NCBI RefSeq assembly: GCF_900110555.1
Contig: NZ_FOEE01000008.1
Span: 1 to 64,000 of the forward strand
DNA length: 64,000 bases
Reading direction: 5' to 3'
Origin: Trujillonella endophytica
GTDB taxonomy: Bacteria > Actinomycetota > Actinomycetes > Mycobacteriales > Geodermatophilaceae
This document shows positions 7,150-52,531 of this stretch, piece after piece. A program made the translations under genes and the position numbers. Numbering within the stretch: the stretch's first letter is position 1; each line of letters begins with the position of its first letter. The notes beneath the pieces were generated by a model, which had not been told where the DNA came from, did no database searches, and was given only the letters and a program-made list of their open reading frames with translations.

Positions 7150-8076
7150 TCAGCGGGCGGCCACGCGGGCGCGGGCCCGCTCCCGGCTCTCCACGAACCG
7201 GGAGGCGGCCGCGTCGAGGCCGGTCACGAACTCTGCCAGCTCCTCGCGCGCCTTCTCGCCGGCGGCGCCGAGGTCGGTGCGCTCGAACACCCGCCACGCC
7301 CGGAGCACCGGGCTGACCACCTCGTCGTGGTGCAGCCGCAGGTCGTAGATCCCGGCCTTCGCGATGAGCGTGGACATGCGGCGGAACCCGGCCATGCCGG
7401 CGCCCGGCATCGCGAAGCCCACGACCTCCGTGGTCACCGCCTGCATGGACAGGTCGGGGTCGATGTCGAACGCCGCCGCCATGAGGTTGCGGTAGAAGAC
7501 CATGTGCAGGTTCTCGTCGGTGGCGATGCGGGCGAGCAGCTTGTCGGCGATCGGGTCACCGGTGGCGCGGCCGGTGTTGCGGTGCGAGACGCGGGTCGCC
7601 AACTCCTGGAACGACACGTAGGCCAGCGCCTCCAGGGGGCTCTTGTCCCCGGAGTCGTACCCGCTGGTCATGTAGTCCATCCGGGCGCGCTCGAGCGCGA
7701 CGGGATCGACGCCGCGCGTGACCAGCAGGTAGTCGCGCAGCGCTATGCCGTGCCGGTTCTCCTCGGCCGTCCAGCGGCCCACCCACTGCCCCCAGGCGCC
7801 GTCGCGGCCGAACCGGGTGGCGATCTCCCGGTGGTAGCTGGGCAGGTTGTCCTCGGTCAGCAGGTTGGTGATCATCGCCGCCCGCGCCGTCTCGTCGAGC
7901 CGCGACTGCTCCGGCGACCAGTCCTCGCCGCCGAGGGCGGCGAAGTCGCGCCCCTCCGACCACGGGACGAAGTCGTGCGGATGCCACTCCTTGGCCAGGG
8001 AGAGGTGCCGGTCCAGGTTGTCGGCCACCACGGGCTCGAGCTCGGTCAGCAGGGCGGCGTGCGGAGAGGTGGTCAC
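7150..8076 (-). CDS. acyl-ACP desaturase (di-iron, DesA-like)
   Basis: A 308-residue soluble desaturase of the stearoyl-ACP desaturase family. It inserts a double bond into ACP-bound fatty acids using O2 and ferredoxin. Both di-iron motifs are present: EENRHG in the first half and DENLHM in the second, each within a four-helix ferritin-like core. Actinobacteria such as mycobacteria carry several paralogues (DesA1/DesA2). The GTG at 8076 has GGAGT five bases upstream. It stands alone. The 244-base gap to the divergent LCP gene holds a CGGATG-G-CATCCG dyad at 8225-8237. Confidence 0.93.
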   Translation of the reverse strand: MTTSPHAALLTELEPVVADNLDRHLSLAKEWHPHDFVPWSEGRDFAALGGEDWSPEQSRLDETARAAMITNLLTEDNLPSYHREIATRFGRDGAWGQWVGRWTAEENRHGIALRDYLLVTRGVDPVALERARMDYMTSGYDSGDKSPLEALAYVSFQELATRVSHRNTGRATGDPIADKLLARIATDENLHMVFYRNLMAAAFDIDPDLSMQAVTTEVVGFAMPGAGMAGFRRMSTLIAKAGIYDLRLHHDEVVSPVLRAWRVFERTDLGAAGEKAREELAEFVTGLDAAASRFVESRERARARVAAR

Positions 8077-22449: not shown

Positions 22450-22476
22450 GGGGCTCTCTTCCCTCCTGCGGACCGC

Positions 22477-22528
22477 GGCCCCCCGCGGGGGTCCGCCACG
22501 AGCGTGCGAGTGGTGGGGCAGGGGGTCC
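22477..22528. repeat. dispersed 52-55 bp double-palindrome repeat, copy 1
   Basis: This copy shares an aligned core with copies at 32095-32148 and 51639-51693: outer arms GGCCCC.../...GGGGTCC, and an inner region CCGCC-CGAG...GCGAGTGGTGGGG. It sits between moaD and the CsbD-like gene, both on the minus strand. Its inner palindrome is the most degenerate of the three. Confidence 0.7.
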
Positions 22529-22532
22529 TGCG

Positions 22533-22784
22533 TCATCCTCCCGCGAAGGGGGGCAGCACGTCGACCACGGCACCGGGCGCGAGTGCGGCGTGCCGGTCGC
22601 GCGCTGCCGCGCCGTCGACGAGGAACGAGCAGGCTGTGAGCACCCGCTCCAGCCGGTCGCCGTGGGCGTCGACCAGCTGGCCGACGAGCTCCTCGAGCGT
22701 CGCGGCCGTCCGCGCCTCGCTGTCGACGCCGGCCGCGGCGCGGGCGCCGGCGAAGTAGCGCACGGTGACGGGGGCGCTGCTCAC
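22533..22784 (-). CDS. moaD: molybdopterin synthase sulfur carrier subunit
   Basis: An 83-residue ubiquitin-like protein starting VTVRYFAGARAAAGV and ending in VDVLPPFAGG. The terminal Gly-Gly is the site of adenylation and thiocarboxylation, from which sulfur is passed to cPMP in MoaE. The GTG start lies one base after the moaA stop, so moaA and moaD form an operon. The activating MoeB-type enzyme is not in the window. Confidence 0.93.
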   Translation of the reverse strand: MSSAPVTVRYFAGARAAAGVDSEARTAATLEELVGQLVDAHGDRLERVLTACSFLVDGAAARDRHAALAPGAVVDVLPPFAGG

Positions 22785-30882: not shown

Positions 30883-32056
30883 ACCAGGCATAGGAGGCTT
30901 TCCCCCTGCCGACGACGGTCAGGACGCGGGGAAAGCTTCCTCTGCCTCGGGGGAGCGGGATGTCGTCAGCACCGTGCTCGGCTTCGCCCGCACCCTGCGC
31001 GCGGCCGGCGTCGCCGCCTCCCCGGACCGGGTCGAGGCGATGCTGGCCGCGATCGGCGCCCTCGACGTCCTGGACGCCTCCGCCGTCTACTGGGCCGGCC
31101 GGCTGACGCTGTGCAGCGGCCCCGACGACCTCGAGCGCTACGACGCCGCCTTCGCCGCCTGGTTCTCCGGCGAGGCGCCCCGGCTGCGGCCGGCGCCGGC
31201 CGACCGGACCCAGGTGGTCGTCTCGTCCTCGGCGCCGCTGGAGGCCGGCAGCGCCGACGGCGGGGACGACGACCCCTCCGACGTCGCCGGGCAGGCCAGC
31301 GCCGACGAGGTGCTGCGTCACCGCGACGTCGCCGAGCTGACCGTGGCCGAGCGGGAGGAGATGCGGCGGCTGTTCGCCCTGCTGCGGCCGGCGTCGCCCA
31401 TGCGGCCCTCGCGGCGCCGGCGGCCCAGCGCACACGGGTCGGTGCACGCCTCCCGCACGGTCCGCCGCGCGCTGCGCGACGGCGGCGAGGTGGCGCGGCT
31501 GCTCCACCGGCGGGCCCGCCCCCGCCCGCGCCGCGTCGTGCTGCTGATCGACGTCTCCGGCTCGATGAGCCCCTACGCCGACGCGCTGCTGCGCTACGCG
31601 CACGCCGCCGTCCGCGCGCACCCCGCCGCCACCGAGGTCTTCACGATCGGCACGCGGCTGACCCGGGTGACCCGCGAGCTGCGGCTGCGCGACCCCGACA
31701 AGGCGCTGGCGGCCGGCGGCGCGGCGATCCCCGACTGGTCCGGTGGCACCCGGCTGGGCGAGGTGCTCAAGGCCTTCCTCGACCGGTGGGGGCAGCGCGG
31801 CACCGCGCGGGGGGCGATCGTCGTGGTCTGCAGCGACGGGTGGGAGCGGGGCGACACCGGCCTGCTGGCCGAGCAGATGGCGCGGCTGCGCCGGCTCGCG
31901 TACGCCGTGGTGTGGGTGAATCCGCACAAGGGCCGGATCGGGTACGAGCCGCTGACCGGGGGCATGCGGGCGGCCCTGCCGTCGTTGGACGCCTTCGTGG
32001 CGGGGCACAGCCTCGCCGCGTTCGAGGAGCTCACAGGAGTGATCGCCCGTGCGTGA
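30872..32056 (+). CDS. VWA domain protein (CoxE-like)
   Basis: A 394-residue von Willebrand A protein of the CoxE type. An N-terminal helical region (VLGFARTLRAAGVAASPDRVEAML, read as two halves) is followed by an Arg-rich segment and a VWA domain with the MIDAS motif DVSGSMS at 227-233, plus GGTRLG and the SDGWERGD loop. It works with the preceding MoxR ATPase as a metallochaperone or insertase for molybdenum hydroxylases. The first possible GTG (30872) overlaps the upstream stop by 11 bases. A GTG at 30974, beyond a strong hairpin, gives a more conventional N-terminus (VLGFAR). Confidence 0.88.
   Translation: MAAEPGIGGFPPADDGQDAGKASSASGERDVVSTVLGFARTLRAAGVAASPDRVEAMLAAIGALDVLDASAVYWAGRLTLCSGPDDLERYDAAFAAWFSGEAPRLRPAPADRTQVVVSSSAPLEAGSADGGDDDPSDVAGQASADEVLRHRDVAELTVAEREEMRRLFALLRPASPMRPSRRRRPSAHGSVHASRTVRRALRDGGEVARLLHRRARPRPRRVVLLIDVSGSMSPYADALLRYAHAAVRAHPAATEVFTIGTRLTRVTRELRLRDPDKALAAGGAAIPDWSGGTRLGEVLKAFLDRWGQRGTARGAIVVVCSDGWERGDTGLLAEQMARLRRLAYAVVWVNPHKGRIGYEPLTGGMRAALPSLDAFVAGHSLAAFEELTGVIARA
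30886..30947 (+). promoter_or_regulatory. 20-bp inverted repeat at the coxD/coxE junction
   Basis: Arm 30886-30905 (AGGCATAGGAGGCTTTCCCC) pairs with 30928-30947 (GGGGAAAGCTTCCTCTGCCT), with two mismatches and a 22-base loop. It would lie in the coding sequence if the VWA gene starts at 30872, or in a leader if it starts at 30974. The 5' arm contains an AGGAGG sequence that would be sequestered. A terminator or translational switch is possible. Confidence 0.6.
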
Positions 32057-32094
32057 GAGATCTACGACCATCGGTACACGACGCGCGCCCTGGT

Positions 32095-32148
32095 GGCCCC
32101 CTGCAGGGGCCCGCCGCGAGCTCGCCAGTGGTGGGGGGCAGGGGGTCC
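32095..32148. repeat. dispersed 52-55 bp double-palindrome repeat, copy 2
   Basis: Outer arms GGCCCCCTGC and GCAGGGGGTCC flank an inner perfect palindrome GCGAGCTCGC followed by CAGTGGTGGGGGG. About 45 of 55 positions match the reverse complement of copy 3. It fills the 98-base gap between the CoxE-like and XdhC genes. Confidence 0.78.
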
Positions 32149-32154
32149 TCCGAC

Positions 32155-33276
32155 ATGCGTGATGTCCTGGACGACCTGGTGGGCTGGTGGCAGGCCGGGG
32201 AGACCGTCGGCATGGGAACGGTCGTGGCCACCTGGCGCTCGGCCCCCCGACCGGCGGGCGCCTCGATGCTGGTCGGCCCCGACGGGACCGCGGTCGGCAG
32301 CGTCTCCGGCGGGTGCGTGGAGGGCGCGGTCTACGAGGAGGCGCGGGACGTCGTCGAGACCGGCGTCCCCACGCTGGAGCGCTACGGGGTCAGCGACGAC
32401 GACGCCTTCGCCGTCGGCCTGACCTGCGGCGGGATCCTCGACGTCTTCGTCGAGCAGGTGTCGCGCGAGTCCTTCCCCGAGCTGGGCGACATCGCGGTGT
32501 CGGTGGGCCGGCACGAGCCGGTCGCCGTCGTCACCTGCGTGAAGGGGGCGGAGGACCGGCTCGGCAAGCGGCTCGTCCTGTGGCCCGACCGCGCCTCGGG
32601 CACGCTCGGCGGGCAGCGGATCGACGACGCCGTGGCGGCCGACGCCCGCGGGATGCTCGCCGCCGGCCGCACCGGGCTGCTGCACGTCGGGCACGACGGC
32701 GAGCGGCGCGGCGACGACCTCACCCTCTTCGTCAACTCCTTCGCCCCCGCCGCGCGGATGGTGGTGTTCGGCGCCATCGACTTCGCCGCCGCCGTCGCAC
32801 GGGTGGGCGCGTTCCTCGGCTACCGCGTCACCGTGTGCGACGCGCGGCCGGTGTTCGCCACGCCCAAGCGCTTCCCCGACGCCCACGAGGTGATCGTCGA
32901 GTGGCCGCACCGCTACCTGCAGACCGAGGTCGACGCCGGTCGGATCGACGAGCGCACGGTGCTGTGCGTGCTGACCCACGACCCGAAGTTCGACGTGCCG
33001 CTGCTGGAGGTCGCGCTGCGGCTGCCGGTCGCCTACGTCGGGGCGATGGGCTCGCGGCGCACGCACGACGAGCGGATGGAGCGGCTGCGCGAGGCCGGGA
33101 TGACCGCGGAGGAACTGGGCCGGCTCTCCTCGCCGATCGGCCTCGACCTCGGCGCGCGCACGCCGGAGGAGACCGCGGTGTCGATCGCGGCCGAGATCAT
33201 CGCCGGCCGGTGGGGCGGCTCGGGGGAGCGGCTGACCGGCGTCGACGGCCCGATCCACCGGACGGCGGACCGCTGA
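32155..33276 (+). CDS. XdhC/CoxF family molybdenum hydroxylase maturation protein
   Basis: A 373-residue XdhC-family protein. The N-terminal XdhC/CoxI domain has SGGCVEGAVYEEARDVV and LTCGGILDVFVEQV, each with a conserved cysteine. The C-terminal Rossmann domain has RMVVFGAIDFAAAVARVG, VCDARPVFATPKRFP, LTHDPKFDVPLLEVAL and VGAMGSRRTHDERM. XdhC binds sulfurated molybdenum cofactor and protects it until insertion into the hydroxylase. It belongs to the accessory set with the MoxR and VWA genes and the following MOSC gene. The true ATG is at 32155. Confidence 0.93.
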   Translation: MRDVLDDLVGWWQAGETVGMGTVVATWRSAPRPAGASMLVGPDGTAVGSVSGGCVEGAVYEEARDVVETGVPTLERYGVSDDDAFAVGLTCGGILDVFVEQVSRESFPELGDIAVSVGRHEPVAVVTCVKGAEDRLGKRLVLWPDRASGTLGGQRIDDAVAADARGMLAAGRTGLLHVGHDGERRGDDLTLFVNSFAPAARMVVFGAIDFAAAVARVGAFLGYRVTVCDARPVFATPKRFPDAHEVIVEWPHRYLQTEVDAGRIDERTVLCVLTHDPKFDVPLLEVALRLPVAYVGAMGSRRTHDERMERLREAGMTAEELGRLSSPIGLDLGARTPEETAVSIAAEIIAGRWGGSGERLTGVDGPIHRTADR

Positions 33277-46247: not shown

Positions 46248-46571
46248 GTGACCTCCGCCGAGCCCGCTGCCGTGATCCGGGACGAGTCCGCAGGGGCGTT
46301 CGACCCCGATCTGGCCTGGCAGCGGGCCCGGTCGGTGGCGATGCGCCCGGAGCCGTTCGGGGCGCTCGTGTACCACTTCGGGAACCGCAAGCTGTCGTTC
46401 CTGAAGTCGAAGCTGCTGGTCAGCGTCGTCGAGGCGCTGGAGCAGCACCCGAGCGTGCACGCGACGCTCGCCGCCTGCGAGGTCCCCGAGGCGCAGCGTC
46501 CCGCCTACGTGAAGGCGCTGGCCGACCTCGCCCGCTCGCAGATGATCGAACGCAGGGAGCTGCCCGCATGA
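46248..46571 (+). CDS. mftB: mycofactocin precursor-binding chaperone
   Basis: A 107-residue PqqD-like RRE protein that binds the MftA leader and delivers it to MftC. Family features are WQRARSVAMRPEPFGALVYHFGNRKLSFLKSKLLV and the helical C-terminus ending SQMIERRELPA, read in segments. GTG at 46248, ten bases after the mftA stop. It overlaps mftC by four bases (ATGA), so the two are translationally coupled. Confidence 0.95.
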   Translation: MTSAEPAAVIRDESAGAFDPDLAWQRARSVAMRPEPFGALVYHFGNRKLSFLKSKLLVSVVEALEQHPSVHATLAACEVPEAQRPAYVKALADLARSQMIERRELPA

Positions 46572-47806
46572 CCGCCGTCCTCCCCTCCCGTCCCGCCGCA
46601 CCGGCCGTCCGCCCCGACCGCCCCGTCGGCGGCCGGCTGATCGACCAGTTCGAGTACGGCCTCGACGCGCCGATCTGCCTGACGTGGGAGCTCACCTACG
46701 CCTGCAACCTGGCGTGCGTGCACTGCCTGTCGTCGTCCGGGCGGCGCGACCCGCGCGAGCTGTCCACCGCCGAGGCCGAGGGCGTCATCGACGAGCTGCA
46801 GCGCATGCAGGTCTTCTACGTCAACGTCGGCGGCGGCGAGCCGACCGTGCGGCCGGACTTCTGGCACCTGCTGGACTACGCGATCGACCACCAGGTCGGC
46901 GTGAAGTTCTCCACCAACGGCATCAAGCTCGACAAGGCCCGCGCCGCGCAGCTCGCGGCCACGGACTACGTGGACGTGCAGATCTCCCTCGACGGCGCCA
47001 CCGCCGAGGTGAACGACCGCGTCCGCGGCGCCGGCTCGTTCGCCACCGCCACCCGGGCCCTGGAGAACCTGGCCGAGGCCGGGATGAAGGACTTCAAGGT
47101 CTCGGTCGTCGTCACCCGGGAGAACGCCGGGCAGCTCGACGCGTTCAAGGCGCTCACCGACTCCTTCGGCGCCCAGCTGCGGATCACCCGGCTGCGCCCG
47201 TCGGGCCGCGGGGCCGATGTGTGGGACCAGCTGCACCCCACCCAGGCGCAGCAGCGGGACCTCTACAACTGGCTGCTGGCCAACGGCGACAACGTGCTCA
47301 CCGGCGACTCGTTCTTCCACCTGTCGGCGTTCGGCGAGGCCCTGCCGGGGCTCAACCTCTGCGGCGCCGGCCGCGTGGTGTGCCTGATCGACCCGGTCGG
47401 CGACGTGTACGCGTGCCCCTTCGCCATCCACGAGAACTTCCTGGCCGGCAACGTCCGGGACGAGGGCGGCTTCCAGCGGGTCTGGCAGCAGTCGGAGCTC
47501 TTCGCCGACCTCCGCAGCCCGCAGACCGGCGGCGCGTGCACCAAGTGCGCCCACTTCGACGCCTGCCGGGGCGGGTGCATGGCCGCGAAGTTCTTCACCG
47601 GCCTGCCCCTGGACGGCCCCGACCCCGAGTGCGTGCAGGGGTACGGGGAGAGCGCCCTGGCGGCCCGCGACAGCGAGCGCGTCGCGCCGAAGAGCCACAT
47701 CGACCACTCGCACAGCGGTCCGGTGCGCGGCCAGCCCACCCTTCTGGGCTTCCCGTCGATCCCGGCCAAGCTCTGCGACGAGTCGCCGCTGGCCGGGATG
47801 GCCTGA
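46568..47806 (+). CDS. mftC: mycofactocin radical SAM maturase
   Basis: A 412-residue radical SAM/SPASM enzyme. The SAM cluster cysteines are Cys46, Cys50 and Cys53 in YACNLACVHC. VNVGGGEPTVRPDF and VQISLDGATAEVNDRVRG are SAM-site motifs. The C-terminal SPASM cysteines are in GAGRVVCLIDPVGDVYACPFAIHE (in part), CTKCAHFDACRGGC and the final ECVQGYG. It catalyses oxidative decarboxylation of Tyr39 and C-C bond formation with Val38 in MftA. The C-terminal tail HIDHSHSGP is His-rich. The expected next gene, mftD, is missing here. Confidence 0.96.
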   Translation: MTAVLPSRPAAPAVRPDRPVGGRLIDQFEYGLDAPICLTWELTYACNLACVHCLSSSGRRDPRELSTAEAEGVIDELQRMQVFYVNVGGGEPTVRPDFWHLLDYAIDHQVGVKFSTNGIKLDKARAAQLAATDYVDVQISLDGATAEVNDRVRGAGSFATATRALENLAEAGMKDFKVSVVVTRENAGQLDAFKALTDSFGAQLRITRLRPSGRGADVWDQLHPTQAQQRDLYNWLLANGDNVLTGDSFFHLSAFGEALPGLNLCGAGRVVCLIDPVGDVYACPFAIHENFLAGNVRDEGGFQRVWQQSELFADLRSPQTGGACTKCAHFDACRGGCMAAKFFTGLPLDGPDPECVQGYGESALAARDSERVAPKSHIDHSHSGPVRGQPTLLGFPSIPAKLCDESPLAGMA

Positions 47807-47879
47807 CCGGCCCTCCCCGCACGTCCTCACCCCCGTCCGGCACCGCCGGGCGGGGGTGGACGTCGTTCGGGCCCGCGCC

Positions 47880-47900
47880 TAGCGTGTGATCCAGGTCACG
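47880..47900 (+). promoter_or_regulatory. TAGCGT plus TGTGA-N6-TCAC element before the SDR pair
   Basis: TAGCGT (47880-47885) is followed by TGTGATCCAGGTCACG (47885-47900), sharing its T. The dyad matches TGTGA-N6-TCACA at nine of ten fixed positions and would cover the transcription start. It means the SDRs can be expressed separately from mftABC. Confidence 0.5.
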
Positions 47901-47923
47901 GGTTGCTGAGCAGGAGGCGCCGC

Positions 47924-48739
47924 ATGGGCAAGCTCGAGGGCAAGGTCGCGTTCATCACCGGCGCCGCACGAGGTCAGGGGCGCAGCCACGCGGTCCGGCT
48001 CGCTCAGGAGGGGGCCGACATCGTCGCCGTCGACATCTGCGCGCAGATCGACTCGGTGCCCTACCCGATGGCCACCCCGGAGGACCTGGAGCAGACGGTC
48101 CGGGAGGTCGAGGCGCTGGACCGGCGGATCGTGGCCAGCCGGGCCGACGTCCGCGACCTGGGCGCCCTGGAGCGGGCCGTCGCCGACGGCGTGGCCCAGC
48201 TGGGCCGGCTGGACATCGTCCTGGCCAACGCCGGCATCGCGCCGATGGGTGCCGACGACGACCCGGCCCGGGCGTTCGCCGACGTCGTGGACGTCAACCT
48301 GACCGGGGTCTGGAACACGCTGCGGGCGACGGCCCCGGTGCTCGTCGAGCAGGGCGACGGCGGGGCGATCGTGATCACCAGCTCCACCGCGGGCCTGAAG
48401 GGGATCGGCGGGGACTCCCCGGGCGGGCAGGGCTACACGGCCGCCAAGCACGGCGTCGTCGGTCTCATGCGCTCCTACGCCATGACACTGGGGCCGCAGG
48501 GAATCCGGGTGAACACCGTCCACCCGACCGGGGTGAACACCCCGATGGTCGTCAACGACTTCATGCAGAAGTGGCTGGCGGAGGACCCGACCGTCGCCGG
48601 GGCGATGACCAACCTGATGCCGGTGGAGATGCTCGAGGCGGTCGACATCAGCAACGCGATCGTCTGGCTCGTCAGCGACGACGCCCGGTACGTCACCGGC
48701 GTGACACTGCCGGTCGACGCCGGCTTCACCGCCAAGTAG
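47924..48739 (+). CDS. mycofactocin-coupled SDR oxidoreductase
   Basis: A 271-residue short-chain dehydrogenase. It has the nucleotide motif [21 protein letters not shown], the NAG motif [16 protein letters not shown] with the catalytic Ser, Tyr171 and Lys175 in [10 protein letters not shown], and [19 protein letters not shown] and YTAAKHG are hallmarks of the mycofactocin-coupled SDR group, which keep NAD bound and pass electrons to mycofactocin. It lies 117 bases after mftC with its own promoter-like element, and GGAGG precedes the ATG. The alcohol substrate is unknown. Confidence 0.93.
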
Positions 48740-48749
48740 GGGAGGGGCC

Positions 48750-49583
48750 GTGGCCGGGCGGGTGCAGGGCAAGGTCGCGTTCATCACCGGGGCGGCCCGC
48801 GGCCAGGGGCGCAGCCACGCGCTCCGGCTGGCGGAGGAGGGCGCCGACGTCATCGCCGTCGACCTCTGCGGGCCGATCCCCACGATCGAGATGTACCCGC
48901 CCGCCACGGAGGAGGACCTGGCCGAGACCGTCCGGCAGGTGGAGGCGCTGGACCGGCGGATCGTCGCGACCAAGGCCGACGTCCGCGATCGGGGCGCGCT
49001 GGAGGCGGCCGTCGCCGAGGGCGTCGCGCAGCTGGGGCGGCTGGACATCGTGCTGGCCAACGCCGGTGTCTTCGAGATCCAGCCCGCGCTCGAGGTCGGC
49101 GACGACGCGTGGCGGGAGATGATCGACATCAACCTCACCGGCGTCTGGAACACCTGCCGGGCGGGGCTGCCGCACCTGATCGAGGCCGGGGGCGGGTCGA
49201 TCGTGCTGACCAGTTCCACCGCGGGGCTGAAGGGGACGCCGAACACGGTCCACTACACGGCGGCCAAGCACGGCGTCGTCGGGATCATGCGGACGCTGGC
49301 CAACGAGTTCGCCGCGCAGTCCATCCGCGTCAACTCCGTGCACCCCACCGGCGTCGACACCCAGATGATCATGAATCCCAAGACCTGGGGGCTGTTCGAC
49401 CCGGAGAACCCGAACCCGACGCGGGAGGGCGCCGAGCCGATCTTCCGGTCGACCAACGCGCTGCCGGTGCCGTGGGTGGAGCCGCGCGACATCAGCAACG
49501 CGGTGCTCTTCCTCGTCTCCGACGAGGCCCGCTACATCACCGGCGTCACGCTGCCGGTCGACGCGGGGTACACCGTCAAGTAG
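48750..49583 (+). CDS. mycofactocin-coupled SDR oxidoreductase, paralogue
   Basis: A 277-residue SDR closely related to the preceding gene, a tandem duplication: the same [30 protein letters not shown], Ser in LTSSTAG, Tyr169 and Lys173 ([10 protein letters not shown]), and end TLPVDAGYTVK. It differs by an insertion (NPKTWGLFDPENPNPTREGAE) in the substrate loop, so it probably takes a different alcohol. The GTG lies ten bases after the upstream stop, with GGGGAGGGGCC as ribosome binding site. Confidence 0.93.
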   Translation: MAGRVQGKVAFITGAARGQGRSHALRLAEEGADVIAVDLCGPIPTIEMYPPATEEDLAETVRQVEALDRRIVATKADVRDRGALEAAVAEGVAQLGRLDIVLANAGVFEIQPALEVGDDAWREMIDINLTGVWNTCRAGLPHLIEAGGGSIVLTSSTAGLKGTPNTVHYTAAKHGVVGIMRTLANEFAAQSIRVNSVHPTGVDTQMIMNPKTWGLFDPENPNPTREGAEPIFRSTNALPVPWVEPRDISNAVLFLVSDEARYITGVTLPVDAGYTVK

Positions 49584-49621
49584 GCCGCGGGGGCGGCGCG
49601 GGTACGCCGCCCCCGGAGCGA

Positions 49622-50101
49622 TCAGAGGTCGACGACCGCGTTCTCGCCCGAGTCGATCCGCTCGCCGGTGGCCTTGGCCTTCACGAAGCTGAAGGCGGTG
49701 GCGAGGCGGCCGCCGGGGCTGTCCCAGTACTCCGCGGTGTCGCCGTCGACCCGCACGAGGACGACGGAGGGGTCCTCCGGGCCCTGGGGCAGCCACGCCT
49801 CCACCCCGCCGTTCCACAGGTCCTTCTTCTTCGCCACGTCGTCCACCACCGTGGCCTGCCCGGTCAGCGACACCCACGTGCCGCCGGAGCCGACGCCGAC
49901 GTTGACCTGCGGTGAGACGCGGACGTGGTCGAGCCACTCCGCCCCGCGCTCGGCGAAGAACCACAGGTCGCCGTCGAAGTCGACCTCCTGCAGCGTCATC
50001 GGGCGGCTGGTCAGCGTGCCCGTCGGTGTCGTCGTGGTGAGGAAGCCGAAACGTTCGCCCCTGATCAGTTCGGCGACCCTGCGGGTGTCCTCGGTGCTCA
50101 T
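49622..50101 (-). CDS. pyridoxamine 5'-phosphate oxidase-like flavoprotein
   Basis: A 159-residue split-barrel protein of the 'general stress protein 26' PNPOx type: LIRGERFGFLTTTTPTGTLTSRPM, DLWFFAERGAEWLDHV, WVSLTGQATVV and ATAFSFVKAKATGE. These bind FMN, FAD or F420; the exact cofactor cannot be told here. It is convergent with the SDR pair (38 bases) and divergent from the MFS exporter. It interrupts the mft gene order, and a link to mycofactocin chemistry is unproven. Confidence 0.85.
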   Translation of the reverse strand: MSTEDTRRVAELIRGERFGFLTTTTPTGTLTSRPMTLQEVDFDGDLWFFAERGAEWLDHVRVSPQVNVGVGSGGTWVSLTGQATVVDDVAKKKDLWNGGVEAWLPQGPEDPSVVLVRVDGDTAEYWDSPGGRLATAFSFVKAKATGERIDSGENAVVDL

Positions 50102-50322
50102 GCGCGTCCTTCCGTCGATGGTCCGTGCCGGCGGTGCCCCGCCGGGGGGTGCGTGACACGCGGGCTCGGAGCGGGTACCAAGAGGGGGCAACCGAAAGGC
50201 ATACGAGAAACTGCGCAGCGACGCGCGGCAGTCGGGAATGCCGGGGCCGTTCGTCCCCTTGGCCCCCAACGAGCCGGGAGCGCAGCGCCCCCGGGGAACG
50301 AACCGGACCCAGGAGCGCTCGC

Positions 50323-51633
50323 GTGACCACGACGCACGACCGGCCGACCACGGCCACGGCCACGGCGGACCCCGCCGGCCCGGCCCCCGCCGTCGGCCCG
50401 GCCCCCGCGCCGCCCGGCATGGCCCGCACCGCGCTCACGCTCGGCGCGTTCGTCGCGCTGGGCCCGCTCACCATCGACATGTACCTGCCGGCCCTGCCGA
50501 CGGTCGCCGACGACCTGATGACGACGTCGTCGGCGGTGCAGCTCACGCTCACCGGCACCCTCGTCGGGATGGGCCTGGGCCAGATCGTCATCGGCCCGCT
50601 CTCGGACGCGGTCGGCCGGCGCAACCCGCTGCTGCTCGGCACGGCGCTGCACGTCGTCGCCTCGCTGCTGGTGCTCGTCGCCCCCAACGTCGCCGTGCTC
50701 GGGGCCCTGCGGGTGCTGCAGGGCGTCGGCGTGGCGGCGGGGATGGTCATCGCGATGGCGGTGATCCGCGACCTCTACGACGGCCGGGCCGCGGCCACGA
50801 TGATCTCGCGGATCATGCTGGTCATCGGCGCGTTCCCGGTGCTGGCGCCGACGCTGGGCGGCGAGGTGCTGCGGTTCACCACCTGGCGCGGGGTCTTCGT
50901 CATCCTCGCGGCGTTCGGGCTGCTGCTCGTCGTCGTCGGCTGGTTCGTCCTGCGCGAGACCCTGCCCGTGGAACGCCGCGTGCCGGTGGGCGTGCGCAGC
51001 ACGCTGCGCAGCTACCGGGGGCTGTTCGGCGACCGGGTGTTCGTCGGGCTCGTGCTGGTCGGCGGCCTCGTCATCGCCGGGCTGTTCAGCTACGTCTCGG
51101 GCGCGGCCTTCGTCTACCAGGACGAGTTCGGCCTCGACGAGCAGGAGTTCGGGCTCCTGTTCGGCGCCGGCGCGATCTGGCTGATCGTGGCCACGCAGCT
51201 CAACCCGGTGTTCCTGAAGCGCTGGGCGACCGGGCAGATCCTGCTGGCCTCGACGGTCGGCGGGGCGGTCGCGGGCGTCGCACTGGTCGTCCTGGCGGTG
51301 CTCGACACGGGCAGCATCTGGGCCGTGGCCCTGCCGATGTGGGTCGTGCTGTTCTTCGCCGGGCTCGGGCTCCCCAACGCCCCGGCGCTGGCGCTCTCCC
51401 GGCACGGCGAGGCGGCCGGCACCGCCGCCGCCCTGCTCGGCGCGGTGCAGTTCGTCGTCGGCGCCGCGGTGGCCCCGATGGTGGGCGTCCTGGGCAACGA
51501 CGCGCTCGCGATGGGCGTGATCGTGGTCGTGGCGATGGTGCTCTCGCTCGTCGTCCTCGTCACGATGGTGCGGCCGTGGCAGCTGCCCGACCCCTCCGAC
51601 GACGAGGACGCCGCGTTCGTCGTCGCCCACTGA
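50323..51633 (+). CDS. Bcr/CflA-family MFS drug-resistance transporter
   Basis: A 436-residue 12-helix exporter. The Bcr/CflA group pattern is clear: LGPLTIDMYLPALPTVADDL in helix 1, GPLSDAVGRRNPLLLGTALH (motif A) and RVLQGVGVAAGMVIAMAVIRDLY. The N-terminal 40 residues are a Thr/Ala/Pro-rich tail. It exports drugs or small metabolites. GTG at 50323 with AGGAG upstream. The 221-base leader region holds an imperfect hairpin, GTTCGTCCCC (50249-50258) with GGGGAACGAAC (50293-50303). Confidence 0.88.
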   Translation: MTTTHDRPTTATATADPAGPAPAVGPAPAPPGMARTALTLGAFVALGPLTIDMYLPALPTVADDLMTTSSAVQLTLTGTLVGMGLGQIVIGPLSDAVGRRNPLLLGTALHVVASLLVLVAPNVAVLGALRVLQGVGVAAGMVIAMAVIRDLYDGRAAATMISRIMLVIGAFPVLAPTLGGEVLRFTTWRGVFVILAAFGLLLVVVGWFVLRETLPVERRVPVGVRSTLRSYRGLFGDRVFVGLVLVGGLVIAGLFSYVSGAAFVYQDEFGLDEQEFGLLFGAGAIWLIVATQLNPVFLKRWATGQILLASTVGGAVAGVALVVLAVLDTGSIWAVALPMWVVLFFAGLGLPNAPALALSRHGEAAGTAAALLGAVQFVVGAAVAPMVGVLGNDALAMGVIVVVAMVLSLVVLVTMVRPWQLPDPSDDEDAAFVVAH

Positions 51634-51638
51634 AAACG

Positions 51639-51693
51639 GGCCCCGGTGCCCCCCGCCACTCGCGAGCTCGCGGCGGGTCCCTGCACCGGGGCC
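51639..51693. repeat. dispersed 52-55 bp double-palindrome repeat, copy 3 (inverted)
   Basis: Perfect outer arms GGCCCCGGTGC (51639-51649) and GCACCGGGGCC (51683-51693) enclose CCACTC and the palindrome GCGAGCTCGC. Relative to copies 1 and 2 it is inverted. It begins five bases after the MFS stop and precedes mftE, so it may end the MFS transcript. Confidence 0.82.
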
Positions 51694-51723
51694 GCCGTCG
51701 GGCGGCGTCACTAGGCTTCCGCG

Positions 51724-52419
51724 GTGCGTTCTCTCGCGGCCGCGACCTGGCCGGACCTGCCCGAGTCGGCGCTGCTGCTGGTGCCGCTGGGTGCGGTGGA
51801 GCAGCACGGGCCGCACCTGCCGCTGCTCACCGACACGGCCGTCGCCGGGGCGGTCGCCGACGCGGCCGTGGACCGGATCGACTCGGCGCTGCTGGCCCCT
51901 GCACTGGCCTACGGCGCCAGCGGCGAGCACGAGGGCTTCCCGGGCACGATCTCGCTGGGCACCGAGGCGCTCACGGGGCTGCTGGTCGAGTACGGCCGGT
52001 CGGCCTGCCGCTGGGCGGGGCGGGTGCTGCTGGTGAACGGCAACGGCGGCAACCTGGACGCGCTGCGCTCCGCCGGGGCGCTGCTGCGGTCGGAGGGGCG
52101 CGACGTCGCCTGGTGGCCCTGCGGGGTGCCCGGCGGGGACGCCCACGCCGGCCGGACCGAGACGTCGCTGATGTTGCACGTGGAACCCGAGTGGGTGCTG
52201 GGGTCACGGGCGGAGGCGGGGGACACGACGCCCCTCGCGGAGCTCCTGCCCCGGTTGCGCGCCGAGGGGGTAGCGCCGGTGAGCCCGAACGGCGTCCTGG
52301 GCGACCCGGCGGGGGCCAGCGCCGCGGAGGGTGCGGAGTTGCTGGCCGGCCTCGCCGACCGGCTGGTCGCGGCGGCCGGAGCGTGGCGGGTCGACGTCTC
52401 GGGCCGGCTCCGGGACTGA
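51724..52419 (+). CDS. mftE: mycofactocin biosynthesis peptidyl-dipeptidase (creatininase family)
   Basis: A 231-residue metal-dependent creatininase-family hydrolase. Metal ligands are seen in PLGAVEQHGPHLPLLTD (Glu26, His28, Asp37), GEHEGFPGTISLG and DAHAGRTETSLML, plus VNGNGGN. MftE cuts modified MftA to free the Val-Tyr-derived heterocycle. GTG at 51724. It is separated from mftC by 3.9 kb holding the SDRs, a PNPOx protein and an MFS gene. In typical loci mftD and mftE directly follow mftC. Confidence 0.9.
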   Translation: MRSLAAATWPDLPESALLLVPLGAVEQHGPHLPLLTDTAVAGAVADAAVDRIDSALLAPALAYGASGEHEGFPGTISLGTEALTGLLVEYGRSACRWAGRVLLVNGNGGNLDALRSAGALLRSEGRDVAWWPCGVPGGDAHAGRTETSLMLHVEPEWVLGSRAEAGDTTPLAELLPRLRAEGVAPVSPNGVLGDPAGASAAEGAELLAGLADRLVAAAGAWRVDVSGRLRD

Positions 52420-52442
52420 GCTGAGGCCACGATCAGCTCACC

Positions 52443-52498
52443 TGATCCGAGAGTGTCCTCCCTCACCGCAGGAGGTGAGGGAGGACGCTCGGCGATCA
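52443..52498. terminator. bidirectional terminator between mftE and the siderophore-binding gene
   Basis: GTCCTCCCTCACC (52455-52467) pairs perfectly with 52474-52486 around GCAGGA, and flanking CTGATC/GATCAG extend the structure. A further dyad GATCAGGT-C-ACCTGATC spans 52494-52510. Confidence 0.82.
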
Positions 52499-52531
52499 GG
52501 TCACCTGATCATCGTCGTGCCGAGAGCGGGC

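Follow-up and report, generated by a model that had tools for sequence, protein, structure and literature searches.

Three hairpin elements in the window

The window, which is the whole stretch of DNA analysed (64,000 nt of Trujillonella endophytica, referred to below as the host), contains three copies of a short hairpin-forming repeat, and the reported element, copy 3, sits between the MFS gene and mftE of a mycofactocin cluster. Throughout, sense denotes the orientation in which most copies of the repeat follow a gene. The features of the window are as follows.

7694-7761, plus strand: Rfam match (79.7 bits) to the mycobacterial sRNA family ASdes (RF01781)
22477-22528, minus strand: copy 1 (model match 22472-22534, plus strand, E 2.5e-10)
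32095-32148, minus strand: copy 2 (model match 32090-32154, plus strand, E 1.9e-13)
46568-52419: mycofactocin cluster with the radical SAM maturase MftC, a mycofactocin-coupled SDR, a Bcr/CflA-type MFS gene and MftE
51631-51633, plus strand: TGA stop of the Bcr/CflA-type MFS gene (50125-51633); the hairpin of copy 3 begins 4 nt on
51639-51693, plus strand: copy 3, in sense orientation with its GAAGG/GGNCC end first (model match 51633-51698, minus strand, E 1.9e-13)
51639-51649 and 51683-51693: outer arms of copy 3
51652-51659 and 51670-51677: inner arms of copy 3
51660-51669 and 51678-51682: loop and internal loop of copy 3, respectively, by fold prediction
51694-51716, plus strand: right-hand junction of copy 3, GCCGTCGGGCGGCGTCACTAGGC, from the empty-site alignment
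52431-52510: hairpin of a second dispersed family, which starts some 12 nt past the stop of mftE (52419)

The ASdes match may be mere similarity to a desaturase coding sequence. The second dispersed hairpin family (GATCAGCTCACCTGATCCGAGAGTGTCCTCCCTCACC / GGTGAGGGAGGACGCTCGGCGATCAGGTCACCTGATC, with 37-nt arms) has similar copies in several Geodermatophilaceae genomes.

Copies 1 and 3 each follow the stop codon of their upstream gene in sense; for copy 1, whose sense strand is the minus strand, this is a short gene of that strand with its TGA at about 22533-22535. Copy 2 is placed the opposite way round, being antisense to the two plus-strand genes that flank it, a VWA/CoxE gene (Pfam VWA_CoxE) that ends at 32056 and the next gene, which starts near 32155. 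The preliminary description stated that the three copies align over their full length, and the alignment bears this out: identical columns number 45 of 55 between copies 2 and 3, 45 between copies 1 and 2, and 38 between copies 1 and 3. The outer arms and the inner palindrome that it described were also found, except that copy 1 reads GCGTGC at the position where the others read GCTCGC. A refined covariance model (R2) has exactly three matches in the window, copies 1-3, with the next-best at an E value of 0.46. Compared with dinucleotide-shuffled sequence, the stems of copies 2 and 3 score better on one strand or both (z -1.9; -3.1 to -3.8), but the stem of copy 1 alone does not, and evidence at the level of the family is therefore needed for the structure. 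The window element had no match in Rfam, and five copies that were searched there had no convincing match.

Structure and covariation of the family

The consensus of the family in sense is GA[AC]GGACCCC-NNNGC-CCCC-CACC[AG]CTCGC-NN-GCTCGCGGCGGG-CCCCT-GCNNN-GGGGCCG, and its unit is a two-helix hairpin of 55-65 nt. The outer stem comprises 10 bp and the inner stem 8 bp; an asymmetric internal loop of purines separates the two, and the inner stem closes on a conserved hairpin loop that reads CGAGCNNGCGAG on one strand. A second subtype has GTCC/GGAC as its outer arms and inner arms that resemble CTCACCCC/GGGGTGAG. Arrays of 2-4 units, joined by the linker GTTCCAGYACSTCACC, also occur; only a minority of copies have a linker, and the tetranucleotide CGTC is confined to it and not found at the hairpin ends.

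Compensating differences between the window copies had been read as a sign of selection on structure, and the family displays massive covariation in support of this. Among 94 distinct host copies, 94.4% of the cells are paired, 13 of the 18 pairs have changed on both sides and double-change cells number 246 against a shuffled mean of 77, a signal that was destroyed when the partner was slid by 1-3 columns as a control; because the model used for the alignment had this structure built in, the counts lean its way, but the excess is far above that in the slid controls. At two orthologous sites compared across congeners, double-change cells likewise number 97 vs 32 in shuffles. Wobble cells are distributed unequally between the strands, with 444 G.T on the antisense strand and 37 on the sense strand. 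This bias is confined mainly to three or four fixed pair positions and thus represents a trait of the family and not many independent events, and we rejected a G.U strand signal as a general trait.

Copy number and distribution in the Geodermatophilaceae

The window copies are part of a large family. A covariance model built from the three of them gave at least 106 matches at E<=10, about 90 of which had E<0.1, in the 4.87 Mb host genome, these figures being taken from 150 scored among 3128 candidates. Neither of the outcomes that the preliminary description had named as contrary to it, an absence of further copies or copies within genes that lack a conserved structure, was thus observed. An improved model identified 32 clear copies in 797 kb of the congener G001 (42-77 bits, with the next match at 24.8 bits), which extrapolates to about 190 copies per genome, nearly all intergenic, and at least 150 copies are present in the complete genome G081.

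The Geodermatophilaceae are bacteria of soil and stone, and the hairpin family was found in 101 of their 112 genomes, representing 9 of 12 genera. It was detected in none of 16 genomes of the order outside the Geodermatophilaceae and, with stricter filters, in none of 295 genomes of the class. Named genomes were also scanned with an exact pattern, and matches came only from Modestobacter, Geodermatophilus, Blastococcus and Klenkia, together with one record labelled unverified Bacillus; this distribution places the host genome in the Geodermatophilaceae. An identical 56-bp core (two positions were free in the pattern) recurs in several named genera, at 17 loci unrelated to one another. The distribution within the Geodermatophilaceae is patchy; G019 and G039, which are nearly complete genomes from copy-rich genera, have no copy at all, G045, G054 and G004 have 2-5 copies and most congeners have dozens or more. 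No description of such a family in the Geodermatophilaceae was found in the freely accessible journal papers searched.

Placement at stop codons

To place the copies, genes were called by a simple codon-usage method, whose individual calls carry some error; by these calls, of 228 copies from several genomes, 136 are flanked by co-directional genes, 60 by convergent and 14 by divergent ones, and 18 fall inside genes. The location in short gaps between co-directional genes, as first described, therefore applies to all three window copies but not to the family in general. Sense copies outnumber antisense copies by 106 to 30 in the co-directional gaps. Among copies with the upstream gene in sense, 77 have the hairpin start exactly 4 nt behind a TGA and 15 have it 1 nt behind, and hairpins behind TAG stops are mostly 2 or 5 nt away. 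A C precedes the TGA in 91% of the 4-nt copies, as compared with 65% of TGA genes in G001.

Left junctions in non-stop contexts show no enrichment of TGA (4 seen, 3.7 expected), and a plain TGA target motif thus does not explain the placement at stop codons. In the same contexts, TAG was seen 9 times with 1.4 expected, and CTAG 6 times with 0.3 expected, in part at apparent promoter -10 boxes.

Copies in divergent gaps (L146 13340, L216 172, L176 9495 and others) often adjoin CTAG, which looks like the -10 box of the leftward gene that starts about 18 nt away. The copy at L008 495-562 interrupts an HNH-endonuclease-like gene and replaces about 66 nt, apparently the HNH core, that are present in the congener G002.

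Turnover of copies at fixed sites

Alignment of the copy 3 site with the congeners G001 and G002 revealed that it is empty in both, with an uninterrupted CTCACTAGG in place of the host arrangement CCCACTGA-element-GTCACTAGG. The MFS gene of G001 and G002 ends CAC-TAG at the uninterrupted site, and that of the host now stops at the TGA formed at the junction with copy 3. As judged from the aligned sequences, the simplest account of copy 3 is that it was inserted in the lineage of the host, and the CACT found at both its left (CCCACTGA) and right (GTCACTAGG) junctions is a possible candidate for a 4-nt target duplication. Such a CACT is seen at window copy 3 only, with no clear target duplication at the other empty sites aligned. 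Nearest neighbours within a genome are only about 85% identical and so do not point to recent transposition in the host.

The copy 1 site is also empty in G001, and 26 orthologous sites were compared between congeners; an intact copy is shared at 3 of them, about 3 hold remnants, and most of the remaining sites are empty or occupied by another hairpin. The site of copy 2 in G001 is one that holds a different hairpin, which belongs to a third intergenic family (CGGAGTCGCTCG...CGAGCGACTCCG). There are 8 copies of this third family in 797 kb of G001, for example at C26:17884-17966 (in L179) and C28:81825-81896 (in L157). G001 also has a fourth intergenic family, whose hairpins (AGGCATGGGAAGCGATCCCC...GGGGATCGCTTCCCATGCCT) are long and nearly perfect and differ from copy to copy by paired changes; they lie at C45:2674, 132111, 201903 and 233918, C40:146563 and C28:220044.

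Turnover could be followed best at the rpsF-ssb-rpsR-rplI locus, where ssb, rpsR and rplI were recognised from their translations. Of 25 congeners, 20 carry 1-4 units of differing subtypes immediately after the ssb stop, and in the other 5 there is just a gap of about 40 nt. The rplI stop is followed by a family copy or a clear remnant in 13 of 25 species (sequences judged by eye), once in reversed orientation, and the copies there sit between the stop and a terminator-like hairpin that is conserved across species. When mapped on a tree of the flanking genes, presence at the ssb site requires at least 5 changes and subtype 10, and presence at the rplI site requires 7, although this tree rests on 1.2 kb with many forks open; its starred branches alone nevertheless force 3 and 5 changes. 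Even the sisters G080 and G022 (support 99/95) differ in the presence of a copy at the ssb stop. Since 20 of the 25 ssb stops are filled, the subtypes vary and sisters differ, it is apparent that copies have been repeatedly gained, lost or replaced there, and each such turnover could be a new insertion or gene conversion between copies.

Interpretation and alternative explanations

Taken together, these observations make it probable that the elements constitute a REP-like non-coding mobile hairpin family of the Geodermatophilaceae that settles at stop codons. We propose that copies are inserted at a stop codon or right after it, where the purine-rich end (GANGAAGG, AGAAGG or AAGG) often follows the T of the stop and the stop codon would thereby be kept or remade, and that between species the copies are quickly gained, lost, tandemly duplicated or overwritten. 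The hairpins would be moved by a dedicated trans-acting machinery other than Y1/RAYT. On the mRNA, a stop-proximal hairpin may slow termination or lower the output of the upstream gene, and not end transcription, by analogy with the REPs of E. coli, which stall ribosomes and lower output when located within 15 nt of a stop codon (PMC12306157). Within this picture the hairpin structure, the copy number, the restriction to the lineage, the position at stop codons, the empty sites, the turnover and the absence of a Y1 transposase are direct observations, and the dedicated machinery and the effect on translation are inferred. We also consider, as a possibility that is more speculative, a new kind of mobile hairpin, in which non-Y1 machinery would recognise translational stop sites, perhaps via coupling to termination, to transcription, or through a T-purine-purine target, and the stop would be kept or rebuilt on insertion; gene ends would then be a safe harbour for the hairpin.

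The hairpins could instead be static and regulatory, selected in situ for an effect on translation or mRNA stability and spread by gene conversion and not by transposition. This would agree with the covariation kept in each copy, with the filling of the same stop codons in many species at a conserved distance and with the absence of TGA enrichment at non-stop left junctions, but sister species have truly empty sites without any hairpin, the two nearly complete genomes from copy-rich genera have no copy and one copy interrupts a gene of HNH type, and we consider static hairpins an unlikely explanation.

Repeated intrinsic transcription terminators, that is, hairpins retained for ending transcripts, would likewise be positioned behind genes and be scarce between divergent genes (14 of 228 copies); about 30% of 3' regions in the lineage carry a strong unique hairpin, and at two sites another hairpin family occupies the equivalent place in the congener, both in keeping with such a role. 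The T fraction after the sense hairpin, however, is 0.12 against 0.22 for unique 3' hairpins and a background of 0.14, and other strong hairpins are not spared behind the element, with 26% vs about 30% elsewhere. Copies located inside the ribosomal-protein operon ssb-rpsR-rplI, in the ssb-rpsR gap, and those between the rplI stop and the conserved terminator also argue against sense termination, and no terminator-like match was found near window copy 3. The terminator activity that the preliminary description had suggested assaying is thus not supported on sequence grounds (no sense T-tract, operon-internal copies and a terminator already present), by which the element is probably not a sense transcription terminator, and retention of the family for ending transcripts appears quite improbable. 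The T-rich side of the element is its antisense side, and termination of antisense transcripts may still be among its effects.

Very improbable, finally, is a true REP/REPIN of a RAYT system, mobilised by a Y1 tyrosine transposase acting on single-stranded DNA, for although the high copy number, the extragenic hairpins, the arrays and the favouring of one strand by fixed wobble positions (444 G.T vs 37) are reminiscent of it, a search for the RAYT-type transposase (PF01797) that the preliminary description had suggested looking for was negative in all 112 Geodermatophilaceae genomes and positive in the control genomes, the palindrome ends are GA[AC]GGACC and GGCCG without a GTAG tag, the 150 copies of G081 show no leading/lagging strand bias (with the start of the record taken as the origin) and wobble is about symmetrical outside the three or four fixed pairs, so that a RAYT system is largely refuted for living genomes and would have to rely on an enzyme that is extinct or highly divergent.

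Several other candidates for the mover were rejected. A reverse transcriptase (PF00078) is absent from the copy-rich genomes G000 and G001 and present in the copy-poor G045, IS110 (PF01548) is present in the zero-copy genomes G019 and G039 and absent from copy-rich genomes, so that neither follows the number of copies, and the dense clusters of copies examined as a home for a mobiliser gene hold ordinary host genes only.

Comparison with known systems

A mobile REP-like family that settles at stop codons remains our preferred reading, and the assignment of the window element to a REP/BIME type of this lineage is upheld by the high copy number, the extragenic and 3'-biased location, the arrays and the confinement to one bacterial family. 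The REP/BIME/REPIN elements of Enterobacteria and Pseudomonas are similarly short extragenic hairpins present in more than 100 copies behind genes, and they too form tandem arrays with linkers, are lineage-specific and show covariation in their stems. In E. coli, a stop codon is found within 15 nt of many REPs (PMC12306157), and the Geodermatophilaceae hairpins are likewise stop-proximal. Unlike these systems, the Geodermatophilaceae family is without a RAYT/Y1 transposase match (0 of 112 genomes) and without a GTAG end tag, its element is longer and built of two helices, and its placement is much sharper, with a mode at exactly 4 nt after TGA.

The CGTC-tagged REPs of alpha-Proteobacteria, which have stems of 8-9 bp, loops of 4-5 nt and a CGTC end tag (PMC3733652), are also REP-like repeats without a dedicated transposase, but CGTC in the Geodermatophilaceae is limited to the linker and to a minority of copies. 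MITEs share the small non-coding format and the presence/absence polymorphism, whereas for the hairpins described here no consistent target-site duplication was found at the sites aligned and no parent insertion sequence was seen, the dense clusters examined holding ordinary host genes. The attC sites of integrons are imperfect hairpins beside a stop codon whose antisense strand folds better, as in the present family; on inspection, however, neither the hairpin consensus nor the aligned copies contain GTTRRRY/RYYYAAC core sites, and only the element, with no gene cassette, is inserted between syntenic genes.

RAYT transposases account for most of REP biology. The family described here is abundant, REP-like and actinobacterial, no RAYT was found across the Geodermatophilaceae, and its nucleotide-exact placement at stop codons is renewed between species. 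This makes two questions testable, namely what moves REP-like hairpins without RAYT and whether a stop-proximal position results from targeting or from selection on translation, and the ssb-rpsR and rplI sites, occupied in some species and vacant in sister species, offer natural experiments for this. In comparison with the known systems, the family works like REP/BIME yet shows neither of two defining traits, the RAYT and the end tag, and adds a sharp placement at the stop codon.
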